A stretch of 64,000 nucleotides of DNA from Methylobacterium sp. Leaf104. GTDB lineage: Bacteria; Pseudomonadota; Alphaproteobacteria; Rhizobiales; Beijerinckiaceae. The position numbers were made by a program, and so were the translations under genes. The stretch covers positions 186,001-250,000 of the forward strand of contig NZ_LMMZ01000038.1 of assembly GCF_001422885.1 (NCBI RefSeq), written 5' to 3'. The notes under the pieces are model-generated. The model had not been told where the DNA came from. It saw nothing but the letters and a program-made list of their open reading frames with translations, and made no database searches. This document shows, in pieces, positions 5,722 to 44,998 of this stretch (within the stretch, counting starts at the first letter, position 1; each line of letters begins with the position of its first letter).

Positions 5722-5912
5722 CGGCCGGGCGCCGGGACGCAGCCACGGAAGCGGCACAATCCTGCGCGATCCCCGGGGGCGTGTGAGGATTCGCACGGAC
5801 GCGATTCGTCGGATGGCGCGGTTCGTTACCGTTCATCAACCGTTCGGTGATTCCCTCCCAACGTGACGCTTCTGAATTGGCACAGGCTCTTCGGGATCAA
5901 AGGAACGGAGCT

Positions 5913-41588: not shown

Positions 41589-43067
41589 TCAGGCGGCCAG
41601 GGAGCGCCCGAGGTCGTGGACGCGGCGGAGATCCGCCACGAAGGCCGCATAGGCCTCCGCCTTCGCCTCGTCCGGCAGGCGCAGCAGGTAGGACGGGTGC
41701 ACGGTGATGAAGCCCGCATAGGGCTTTTCGAACTGCGCCGGCCCCCGCGCCCGGGTGATCGGGATCTGCTTGCCCGTTAGCGCCAGCACGGCGGTGGCGC
41801 CGAGCGCCACCACGAGCCTGGGCGCGACGAAGTCGAGTTCCCGGTCGAGCCACCAGCGATAGTGGCTGACTTCGCCGGCGGTGGGCTTCTGGTGAATGCG
41901 GCGCTTGCCTCGCTCCTCGAACTTGAAGTGCTTGACCGCATTGGTGAGGTAGGCCTCGCCCCGGGCGATCCCGGCCTCCTCCAGCGCCCGCGACAGAAGC
42001 TGCCCGGCGGGACCGACGAAGGGGCGCCCCTGGCGGTCCTCCTGGTCGCCCGGCTGCTCGCCCACGAAGGCGATGGTCGCCCCCACCGGTCCCTCGCCGA
42101 GGACGGCCTGGGTCGCGCCGGGCACGAGCGGCTCCGAACGGCGGATGATGGCGTTCAGCGCCTCCAGCGAATCCGGGGCCTGATCGGCCATGGCCGCGAC
42201 GGCGCGGGCGGGGTTGCGCTTGACGGGCATCTGCGGCTCCCTCTCGATCATGGCGCCCGTGCGCGCCGCCGCCTGCCGGACGAGGCCCGGGATGGCGGCG
42301 GTCTCCGGCATGTTGCGCCAGTACTTCTTCGGCATCTCCGCCCGCATCGCGGACAGGTTGGTCCGGGCGGGGTTGAAGGTGCTCTCGTAGTAATCGCGCC
42401 AACCCGCCTCGAAGCCGTCCTGGGCCGGTGCGTCCTCGCGTCGCCCCGGCGGTCCGTAGGTCAGCCGCGTGCCGTCCCAGCGGGCGGAGGCCTCCGGCGT
42501 CAGGATGGTCCAGTGCAGGCTGCGGAAGCGCTCGACGAAGAACGGCGCGGCGGCACCCAGGATGTGGTGGTCGGGCTCGAACCAGGCGACGAAGCGCTCG
42601 GGCTCGCGCGCCTCGACCCGCCGGAAGCGCAGGAAGGCGTGCATCTTGTGCAGGTCGCGGGCGATGGCCTTGGCCATCCGCTCCAGGCGATGGACCAGCG
42701 GGTCGCTCGACACCTCCAGCAGCCGGCGCTCGCCGTGCAGGCTGCGCCAGATCAGCTCGTAGAGCAGGGCATAGCGCTCGGGATCGCGGTGGAGCACCAC
42801 CCGGGCGACCATCGCGCCCACCCCGCGCGGCAGGCTCAGAGGCGCCTCGTCGTCAGGGGACGGCGTCGGGGTCCCGAACAATCCCGGCGCCTCGCCGATG
42901 GACCACAGGACCCGCTCGGGGGGGACGCGCCGGCCGGCGAGGCGACGCGCGGCGGCACGGAAGCCGTCGAGGTCGGCGCCCAGGGAGAGGTCGACGGCCT
43001 CGAGCGTACCGGAACATGACCCTGCCCCTTCCGCGCAGGGGGGAAGACCTGGGGGCGGCACGCCCAT
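41589..43067 (-). CDS. udgX: UdgX-family uracil-DNA glycosylase fused to an N-terminal DUF4130 domain
   Basis: A 492-residue two-domain protein. Residues about 20-270 are the DUF4130 (putative DNA metabolism) domain: VLWSIGEAPGLF, LHRDPERYALLYELIWRSLHGERRLLEVSSDPLVHRLERMAKAIARDLHKMHAFLRFRRV, WFEPDHHILGAAAPFFVERF. Residues about 300-492 are a family-4-like uracil-DNA glycosylase with GEQPGDQEDRQG (336-347), the UdgX-specific loop KRRIHQKP (388-395) and HPSYLLRLP. In mycobacterial UdgX the loop His forms a covalent bond with DNA after removing uracil; His392 is the equivalent here. One base separates it from the radical SAM gene upstream, so they form an operon. Confidence 0.9.
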   Translation of the reverse strand: MGVPPPGLPPCAEGAGSCSGTLEAVDLSLGADLDGFRAAARRLAGRRVPPERVLWSIGEAPGLFGTPTPSPDDEAPLSLPRGVGAMVARVVLHRDPERYALLYELIWRSLHGERRLLEVSSDPLVHRLERMAKAIARDLHKMHAFLRFRRVEAREPERFVAWFEPDHHILGAAAPFFVERFRSLHWTILTPEASARWDGTRLTYGPPGRREDAPAQDGFEAGWRDYYESTFNPARTNLSAMRAEMPKKYWRNMPETAAIPGLVRQAAARTGAMIEREPQMPVKRNPARAVAAMADQAPDSLEALNAIIRRSEPLVPGATQAVLGEGPVGATIAFVGEQPGDQEDRQGRPFVGPAGQLLSRALEEAGIARGEAYLTNAVKHFKFEERGKRRIHQKPTAGEVSHYRWWLDRELDFVAPRLVVALGATAVLALTGKQIPITRARGPAQFEKPYAGFITVHPSYLLRLPDEAKAEAYAAFVADLRRVHDLGRSLAA

Positions 43068-43068
43068 C

Positions 43069-44283
43069 TCAGAACAGGCTCAGCTGCTGCGGCGGGTCGG
43101 CCAGGCGCGCCCGCAGGTCGAGGCGGTCGGTGAGCCCGCCGGCCGGGTGATAATCGGCCGCGATGAGGAAGGGCCGCGCCCGCTTCAGGGCCGAGGTCAG
43201 CCGCGCGACGTCGTCGAGGCGCAGGCGCGTATGCCGGCGCGCCCGGATGATCTTGTCCACCGCCCGCGCACCGAGCCCCGGCACCCGCAGCAGCGCCTCG
43301 CGGTCGGCGGCGTTCACGTCGACGGGGAAGCGGTGGCGGTGCTTCAGCGCCCAGGCCAGCTTCGGGTCGATGTCGAGGGACAGCATCCCGTCCTCGGTGG
43401 CGTCCGCGACGTCGTCCGGCGTGAAGGCGTAATAGCGGAGCAACCAGTCGCCCTGGTACAGGCGGTGCTCGCGCTGGAGCGGCGGCGATGTCAGCGGCAG
43501 GATGGTCGAGCCGTCCGGAATCGGGCTGAAGGCCGAGTAGTAGACCCGCTTGAGGTTGTAGGAGCCGTAGAGGAGCGCACTCTTGCGGATCAGCGCCTCG
43601 TCGGTGGTGGCGTCGGCTCCGACGATGACCTGCGTCGACTGCCCGGCGGGCGAGAACCGGCGCTTCTCGGCCTTGGCCTCGACGATCCGCTCGCCGATCT
43701 GCGCGATGGCGTGCTGGATGACGGCGCCGTCCTTCTCGGGCGCCAGGCGCTCCAGGCTCGCCTCGGTGGGCAACTCGACGTTGATCGAGAGCCGGTCGGC
43801 GTAGAGGCCCGCCTCCTCGATCAGCCAGGGGCTCGCTTCCGGAATCGACTTCAGGTGGATGTAGCCGCGAAAGCCGTGGTCGCGCCGCAGGGACTTGGCC
43901 ACCCGCGTCAGCAATTCCATGGTGTGGTCGGGCGACTTGATGATGCCGGAGGAGAGGAACAGCCCCTCGATGTAGTTGCGCTTGTAGAACTCCACCGTGA
44001 GGGTCACGACCTCCTCGACGGAGAACTTCGCCCGCTGGACGTTGGAGGAGCGGCGATTGACGCAGTAGGCGCAGTCGAACAGGCAATAGTTCGTCAGCAG
44101 GATCTTCAGGAGCGAGATGCAGCGCCCGTCCGGCGTGTAGGCGTGGCAGATGCCGGCCCCCGTGGTCGAGCCGAGCTCGCCCTTGCCGGCCGTGCGCTTC
44201 GGCGCCCCGGAGGACGAGCAGGAGGCGTCGTACTTGGCGGCATCGGCGAGGATGCGCAGCTTCTTGGCGAACATTTCGTCCAT
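43069..44283 (-). CDS. putative DNA modification/repair radical SAM protein with C-terminal helix-hairpin-helix
   Basis: A 404-residue protein. The radical SAM cluster motif CLFDCAYC places Cys67, Cys71 and Cys74 as iron-sulfur ligands; FLSSGIIKSPDHTMELL, GYIHLKSIP and RLSINVELPT are the barrel strands. The C-terminus (about 320-370) contains a helix-hairpin-helix (LLRVPGLGARAVDKIIRARRHTRLRLDDVARL), implying DNA binding. It matches the TIGR03916 family, which travels with UdgX/DUF4130 genes; the reaction is unknown. ATG at 44283 starts the family match; the frame extends 87 residues upstream without likeness. A LexA box lies 19 bases upstream. Confidence 0.9.
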   Translation of the reverse strand: MDEMFAKKLRILADAAKYDASCSSSGAPKRTAGKGELGSTTGAGICHAYTPDGRCISLLKILLTNYCLFDCAYCVNRRSSNVQRAKFSVEEVVTLTVEFYKRNYIEGLFLSSGIIKSPDHTMELLTRVAKSLRRDHGFRGYIHLKSIPEASPWLIEEAGLYADRLSINVELPTEASLERLAPEKDGAVIQHAIAQIGERIVEAKAEKRRFSPAGQSTQVIVGADATTDEALIRKSALLYGSYNLKRVYYSAFSPIPDGSTILPLTSPPLQREHRLYQGDWLLRYYAFTPDDVADATEDGMLSLDIDPKLAWALKHRHRFPVDVNAADREALLRVPGLGARAVDKIIRARRHTRLRLDDVARLTSALKRARPFLIAADYHPAGGLTDRLDLRARLADPPQQLSLF

Positions 44284-44301
44284 GACGAAGAGATGCGCCT
44301 C

Positions 44302-44316
44302 GTTCGTGTTTCGTTC
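44302..44316 (-). promoter_or_regulatory. LexA (SOS) box of the radical SAM-udgX operon
   Basis: GTTC-N7-GTTC, the alphaproteobacterial LexA consensus, is matched exactly: GTTC at 44302-44305 and 44313-44316 (given on the plus strand). It sits 19 bases before the start codon of the radical SAM gene, over or just after its promoter, where a repressor would block transcription. Confidence 0.75.
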
Positions 44317-44380
44317 AAGTTTTCGCGCGCGAATCCGGACTTTCTCCGCCGCCGCGATGTCGCAGCCCGGAGCCTCGACC

Positions 44381-44998
44381 TCACGTGTCCGTCTCGAACG
44401 GATCGGTGTCGGGCTCGACCTCGATGACCCGGCGTCCGAGGCCGTAAGGGAAGCCGGCGCGGGCCATGGCGGCGAGATCGCGGTCACGATGGGCCTCGCG
44501 GGTCCCGGGCCTGCGCCAAGGGCCGAGGCGCCGCCGCCTGGCATAGGCCCGGGCCGCTTCCTCCTCTAGGTCGACGCCCTCGTCCGCGGTCTCCCGCTCG
44601 TTCTCCATCGCGCTGGCCACCTGCTCGCGCGACACGCCCTTGGCGGCGAGCTTGGCCGACAGGGCGCGGGCGGAGGCGCCGCGCCGGCGCAGGGCCGCGA
44701 GACGCCCGGCCGTGAAGCGGGCGTCGTCCACGAGGCCGGCGCCGACCGCGCGGGCGACCGTGGCCTCGATCGCCTCGGCGTAAGCGCCCGCATCCTCGCC
44801 GCGCAGGCGGCAGCGCTTGTCGACCCGCCGCTTCAGGGTCTGCCGCAGCATCGCCACGGAGGCGCTGTAGCGTTCGAGGTAATGCAGGGCCGCCCGTTCG
44901 AGATAGGCGGGCGTGACGGGCGGCGGCGGCTTCGCCTCGGCCCGGCCATCCGAGGCAGCTCCGGCGGGGCGGCGGGACGCAACGTTTCGCGGTGTCAT
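44381..44998 (-). CDS. recX: RecX-family regulatory protein
   Basis: A 205-residue protein of the RecX family, which limits RecA filament growth. The tandem three-helix repeats are visible: YLERAALHYLERYSASVAMLRQTLKRRVDK, GLVDDARFTAGRLAALRRRGASARALSAKLAAKGVSREQVASAM, and a third at EEEAARAYARRRRLGPWR...DLAAMARAGFPYGLGRRVIE. An Ala/Pro-rich leader of about 28 residues precedes them. ATG at 44998. It lies 97 bases upstream of the SOS-controlled radical SAM gene on the same strand; recA is not in the window. The repeat order fits RecX better than any other small helical family. Confidence 0.87.
   Translation of the reverse strand: MTPRNVASRRPAGAASDGRAEAKPPPPVTPAYLERAALHYLERYSASVAMLRQTLKRRVDKRCRLRGEDAGAYAEAIEATVARAVGAGLVDDARFTAGRLAALRRRGASARALSAKLAAKGVSREQVASAMENERETADEGVDLEEEAARAYARRRRLGPWRRPGTREAHRDRDLAAMARAGFPYGLGRRVIEVEPDTDPFETDT

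Follow-up and report, generated by a model that had tools for sequence, protein, structure and literature searches.

UdgX is a cross-linking glycosylase that is in use as a uracil-capture reagent, and we know of no clear natural role for it. In SOS systems, repression by LexA is lifted when RecA stimulates cleavage of the repressor after DNA damage. Uracil-DNA glycosylase genes have been placed under such control before: an excerpt of PMC8565304 predicts that in Bacteroidetes the uracil-DNA glycosylase operon COG1573-COG4277, made up of two genes, is under SOS control, and cites such control as reported for Verrucomicrobia and Alphaproteobacteria (da Rocha 2008, Erill 2016). Excerpts of two further papers connect DUF4130 to radical SAM proteins and to uracil-DNA glycosylases in an SOS context (PMC3765255), and list four COG1573 genes in Caulobacter (PMC1839093). 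The sequence GTTC-N7-GTTC is given as the SOS box for Caulobacter in Table 1 of PMC9578287, and as the alphaproteobacterial box in the introduction of PMC8565304. For Mycobacterium smegmatis UdgX, the available portion of PMC10359453 describes how the histidine of the KRRIH loop bonds covalently to the abasic sugar.

Here we describe a radical SAM-UdgX operon found in a 64-kb window (the whole stretch of DNA that was analyzed, 64,000 nucleotides). Like the COG1573-COG4277 operon in the excerpt of PMC8565304, it is a two-gene operon of the uracil-DNA glycosylase type under what we predict to be the LexA-type repressor of its lineage, but it differs from that operon in its GTTC-N7-GTTC motif, in its UdgX-type glycosylase with a fused DUF4130, and in its gene order, with the radical SAM gene in first place. 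The original prediction implied that SOS control of such genes was new, a claim that has to be given up, since control of the COG1573-COG4277 operon is already in print, as the same excerpt documents. SOS control of the window operon is a well-supported case of a published type of control, and what our sequence comparisons would add is the breadth of its conservation, the hop of the operator, and a promoter predicted to be leaderless. Among the top-ranked literature matches, which took in few subscription journals, we recognized no paper that treats the radical SAM gene with regard to operator turnover, a leaderless promoter, class-wide conservation, or control by LexA in Methylobacterium.

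The radical SAM and DUF4130-UdgX genes

The first gene of the operon (43069-44283, minus strand) encodes a 404-aa radical SAM protein with an HhH C-terminus. Called uncharacterised in the original prediction, the protein belongs to a named NCBIfam family, TIGR03916 (rSAM_link_UDG), which it matches with 546 bits against a cut-off of 343.5, and whose title reads 'putative DNA modification/repair radical SAM protein'. We take COG4277 to be this same family. The HHH_3 match in the C-terminus is under Pfam's gathering score. The radical SAM CX3CX2C motif is formed by C67, C71, and C74, which are invariant in 36 sequences, as are three further cysteines, C22, C46, and C55, that may hold an auxiliary iron-sulphur cluster. 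Structurally, the predicted model (pLDDT 82, with residues 20-45 at low confidence) adopts the usual partial barrel, and is nearest, among the matches listed, to HydE and lipoyl synthase (Z 18.1). This barrel is shared with HydE, lipoyl synthase, and biotin synthase (Z of about 17-18 over 212-227 aligned residues), but at only 9-18% identity, and the window protein differs from all three in its HhH C-terminus and its three additional invariant cysteines. With regard to spore photoproduct lyase (SplB), NCBIfam gave only TIGR03916 and thiH at E-values up to 0.001, and no SPL structure was among the listed matches of the structure searches made with the radical SAM model.

The second gene (41589-43067, minus strand) follows after a one-base gap, and is presumed to be the second gene of the same operon. 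It encodes a 492-aa fusion of DUF4130 (TIGR03915, 198 bits) and UdgX (TIGR03914, 299.9 bits), with both scores over their cut-offs of 112.25 and 189.95 bits, respectively. The UdgX motifs GEQPG, KRRIH, and HPSYLLR are intact at residues 336, 388, and 457. Across 73 aligned UdgX relatives, GEQPG and the final histidine are found in every sequence (73/73 each), and the loop sequence is KRRIH in 34 and a variant of it in 39. The window protein shares GEQPG, KRRIH, and HPS..LR with M. smegmatis UdgX (as given in the excerpt of PMC10359453), and its predicted model superimposes on the structure of that enzyme (6ajo) with 46% identity, a Z of 28.9, and an rmsd of 1.5 Å over 196 residues. Unlike M. 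smegmatis UdgX, it is fused to an N-terminal DUF4130 and presumably shares a transcript with a radical SAM gene. Whole-protein structure searches with the fusion returned listed matches that were filled by UdgX-type glycosylases.

Operator, promoter, and upstream neighbor in the genus

A motif scan of the window located GTTCGTGTTTCGTTC, an exact GTTC-N7-GTTC, at 44302-44316 on the plus strand. The radical SAM ATG is at 44283 on the minus strand, so that 18 bases separate it from the box and the nearest box base lies at -19. The exact match that the original prediction had placed before the radical SAM start is thereby confirmed, and its description of the motif as the alphaproteobacterial SOS consensus agrees with the excerpts of PMC9578287 (for Caulobacter) and PMC8565304. 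Read along the direction of transcription, the element is GAAC-N7-GAAC and spans -33 to -19 relative to the ATG. As a predicted operator, it shares with the alphaproteobacterial SOS box the exact consensus, the promoter position, and the presence of the motif at the genome's own lexA, and differs from it by nothing in sequence.

All 60 promoters available from the genus (the 59 of the genus sample plus that of G683) carry an exact box, which takes one of two arrangements: GAAC-N7-GAAC at about -33 in 26 promoters, and GTTC-N7-GTTC at -16 in the other 34. A TTG stands 35 bases from the ATG in 25/26 promoters of the -33 class and 31/34 of the -16 class, and at -36 in the remaining four. The window counterpart of this TTG forms part of a predicted -35 element, TTGAAC (44313-44318, minus strand), which overlaps the operator and to which we ascribe a promoter function on the strength of its conservation. 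Spacing from this element would place the -10 region at CATCTC (44290-44295, minus strand), a predicted element with a weak consensus and weak conservation. A Shine-Dalgarno-like 4-mer between -16 and -4 occurs in one of the 26 and none of the 34 promoters, that is, 59/60 have none; the window promoter has a GAGG at -18, outside this tested range. The simplest reading is a single, fixed, and probably leaderless promoter, with transcription predicted to begin at the ATG or right beside it, and with the operator overlapping the -35 element in some promoters and the -10/start region in others. Evolutionarily, the two operator states require three changes on the radical SAM gene tree, and well-supported branches force at least two. 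As reconstructed on this tree, then, the operator has changed position and strand at least twice within the genus while the -35-like TTG stayed in place.

Upstream of the operon, across a 97-nt gap, is a gene on the same strand (44381-44998, minus), passed over in the original prediction, that we call RecX-like only, as its matches to RecX models are below curated cut-offs (65.2 against 258 bits at best, and 24.6 against 26 for Pfam RecX_HTH2). This gene is probably not under the 44302-44316 operator itself. It does raise the alternative that LexA binds the operator but that the operon is mainly read through from the RecX-like gene, in which case damage control would be minor here, and a recX relative is indeed found near the operon in 48/59 genus loci. 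However, each of the 60 genus promoters retains an exact operator and the TTG at -35/-36, including those of loci where recX was not found nearby (11/59, some with short flanks). Operators are also kept outside the genus, where no recX was found near the operon in the loci examined, many of which have only ~800 nt of upstream sequence. We thus regard dominant read-through as improbable, and favor a LexA-controlled promoter that belongs to the operon itself.

Conservation of the box in Alphaproteobacteria

Genomes with a radical SAM protein over the family cut-off numbered 25/385 in a sample of the class, 59/59 in the genus sample, and 84/398 in a sample of the phylum (55 from the same class and 29 from other classes); without repeats, these amount to 123 genomes from the class, which we equate with Alphaproteobacteria on the basis of its named loci, and 29 others. 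The closest named orthologues are from Methylobacterium, at 88-90% identity, and we accordingly assign the window to this genus. Each start codon was placed by aligning the orthologue with the protein from the window, and the 250 nt before it were scanned in either orientation; the flanks available were 1500 or 2500 nt in most loci, ~800 nt in L197-L242, and less in a few. The absence of the box from orthologous promoters had been named beforehand as the result that would speak against the original prediction, and the box turned out to be present: an exact GTTC-N7-GTTC occurs in 122/123 alphaproteobacterial upstream regions, compared with 1/123 for the reversed motif and 0/123 for CTGT-N8-ACAG, counts that do not represent independent trials, given the relatedness of the orthologues and their selection by family score. 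A second collection of 80 named loci (79 alphaproteobacterial and one from Xanthomonas, partly from the same genomes) has the exact box in 74/80 and the reversed motif in 2/80.

The six named loci that lack an exact box are L256, L271, L312, L315, L310, and the Xanthomonas locus L322, which makes five misses among the 79 alphaproteobacterial loci. In the first four, a one-mismatch site is present at -20 to -45, to which we give little weight; upstream of the radical SAM gene in L310 and L322, neither an exact nor a one-mismatch box was found. Since the reversed motif reaches one mismatch in 17/80 of the named upstream regions (and in 6/80 within the last 60 nt), only exact alphaproteobacterial sites were counted as boxes. 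The same motif emerged from an unguided dyad search of the last 100 nt, in which pairs of 4-mers with spacers of 3-12 were considered. Outside the genus (with L243, L244, and L322 left out), the top motif was GAAC-N7-GAAC, present in 72/77 named promoters and in 0/770 background windows; within the genus it was again GAAC-N7-GAAC, in 59/59 promoters and 0/590 background windows.

Two promoters, those of L179 and L276, have two exact LexA boxes upstream of the radical SAM gene. Virus-borne copies are represented by matches in two viral contigs and ten phage-collection records, with upstream DNA examined for the two viral contigs. One contig labeled as viral, IMGVR_UViG_3300006947_003566 (L323), carries the radical SAM gene with an alphaproteobacterial-type LexA box upstream, and could be either mislabeled host DNA or a phage-borne copy.

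Other Pseudomonadota and other phyla

Among the 29 orthologues from non-alphaproteobacterial Pseudomonadota, the alphaproteobacterial box was found in none of the promoters (0/29), and the E. coli-type LexA box, CTGT-N8-ACAG, was found exactly in 19/29 and with at most one mismatch in 24/29, with 1/29 for the reversed control. That two unrelated LexA motifs stand at orthologous promoters is strong evidence that regulation, and not just sequence, is kept. LexA control of the operon would not be universal, given the five orthologues of the 29 without a recognized E. coli-type box (L172, L201, L213, L220, and L224). Three of these (L201, L213, and L224) belong to one genus, taken to be xanthomonads, in which TTAGTAGTAATACTACTAA is present at lexA and missing from the radical SAM promoter. 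For L172 and L220, which have no recognized box, the genomes gave lexA matches below the cut-off only.

An exact palindrome, GTCTCAT-N3-ATGAGAC, lies near the start codon in L201, L213, and L224, and in imperfect form in L322 (Xanthomonas dyei); at these promoters, control may have passed to another regulator. The promoters of G520, G711, and G793, compared with the lexA promoters of the same genomes, had only short, GC-rich, or unrelated 8-mers in common with them. Plasmid collections contributed single orthologues from a few further lineages: the Cupriavidus locus has CTGT-N8-ACAG, and no clear box was found in those from Spirosoma and Acetoanaerobium (other phyla) or from Acinetobacter, a genus stated to be without LexA in an excerpt of PMC11332147.

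LexA as the probable regulator

A lexA gene scored over the cut-off in 23/25 searched genomes that have the radical SAM gene, and 20 of these 23, the window's own genome included, have exact boxes upstream of it. In that genome two boxes overlap at C6:24702-24727, at -97 and -86 from the lexA match at C6:24799. The three lexA promoters without an exact box are all from one genus and have one-mismatch sites only, as does the recA promoter of the window's own genome. Other exact boxes in this genome precede dinB by 35 nt, ssb by 148 nt, parC by 31 nt, and a umuD-like gene by 23 nt. The neighbors of these boxes were taken from gene calls by codon score, and the 20 extra stretches used were selected largely on the AT-richness of their spacers, which makes them a biased sample of the 115 sites in the genome. 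Boxes were also seen near dnaE, dnaB, a glyceraldehyde-3-phosphate dehydrogenase gene, a histidine kinase gene, and a gene for a DeoR-type regulator, and these may be there by chance. At G000:C34:303051-303065 (L128), an exact box has a radical SAM-domain gene on one side, at a distance of 229 nt, and on the other, at 124 nt, a 173-aa ORF with no Pfam match.

The sole exception among the 123 alphaproteobacterial genomes, G198, has LexA-family matches that are limited to the C-terminal part and that we read as UmuD-like; as this genome is 92% complete, the absence of LexA from it is not certain. The comparison of promoters shows that the operator is present and conserved in place, that it is specific to its lineage in the way that LexA motifs are, and that it is kept through changes of position. 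A different regulator with a similar direct-repeat site could in principle bind a conserved and functional element of this kind, and the different palindrome at the radical SAM gene of some genomes (taken to be xanthomonads) indicates that other regulators may act on this gene. Against this, the same motif is found upstream of lexA in 20 of the 23 genomes, an E. coli-type LexA box (with up to one mismatch) takes its place in 24 of the 29 orthologues outside the class, and the box is missing upstream of the radical SAM gene in the one alphaproteobacterial genome where the search gave no full LexA, all of which makes a different regulator very unlikely. We are confident, on these comparative grounds, that the 15-bp element acts as a LexA operator. 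The tie between the radical SAM-UdgX operon and the DNA-damage response drawn by the original prediction is, as an interpretation, supported by the orthologue comparison.

Background frequency of the motif

The window holds two exact matches, against 1.14 expected, and 31/100 shuffles reach that number; the second match, at 5831-5845 on the plus strand, is outside the listed ORFs of at least 150 aa. One-mismatch sites in the window are uninformative, with 34 found and 35 expected. Genome-wide, 115 exact sites compare with 41 for the motif read backwards, so that an isolated exact site would often be due to chance; by arithmetic from the genome counts, ~0.6% of 262-nt windows would contain one. 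A single site alone is weak evidence, and it is the orthologue comparison that decides. In the non-promoter remainder of the orthologue loci, five boxes occur in 437,925 bases, or 0.003 per 262 nt. A chance match in a GC-rich genome, as might be argued from the one or so exact sites expected per 64-kb window and from the 41 reversed matches that stand beside the 115 real ones, is a practically negligible explanation and is rejected by the orthologue comparison, as the same promoter has the box in all but one of the 123 orthologues over so low a background and the unguided search recovers the same motif.

Proposed mechanism and role

Mechanistically, LexA bound to the operator would cover the -35 end of the promoter and keep the radical SAM-DUF4130/UdgX operon off. 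Upon DNA damage, RecA filaments would induce LexA self-cleavage and hence release of the operon promoter, and a leaderless mRNA starting at or next to the ATG would then allow both proteins to be made. Repression, damage induction, and the leaderless start are steps that we infer from the arrangement of the promoter and from what is established for SOS systems.

Functionally, we tentatively posit that the operon encodes a module for base repair that damage would induce: the radical SAM protein would act on a DNA base lesion, and UdgX would excise a uracil-like base and cap the site; this is the role that we favor, with considerable reserve. UdgX would remain covalently bound to the abasic site through the KRRIH histidine, and so would shield the site on single-stranded DNA. 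A more specific form of this idea, which we consider unlikely, is a two-step, SOS-induced capture of lesions: the radical SAM protein, using an auxiliary cluster at C22/C46/C55, would convert a pyrimidine in DNA that is damaged or blocked to a base fitting the UdgX pocket, and UdgX would excise this base and cap the site covalently until RecA-dependent repair. If such a pathway were true, the strongly kept LexA control would mean that its chemistry is harmful unless DNA is damaged, as could be argued from the hopping of the operator, the different LexA motif in other classes, and the lack of a box where no LexA was found.

More broadly, the hop of an operator on a fixed promoter within one genus offers what appears to be a clear-cut natural case in which a regulatory site turns over and control is retained. 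For the family, these comparisons would place an orphan radical SAM enzyme and UdgX within the SOS response across much of Pseudomonadota, a placement that narrows the substrate search for both proteins to damage-linked lesions.
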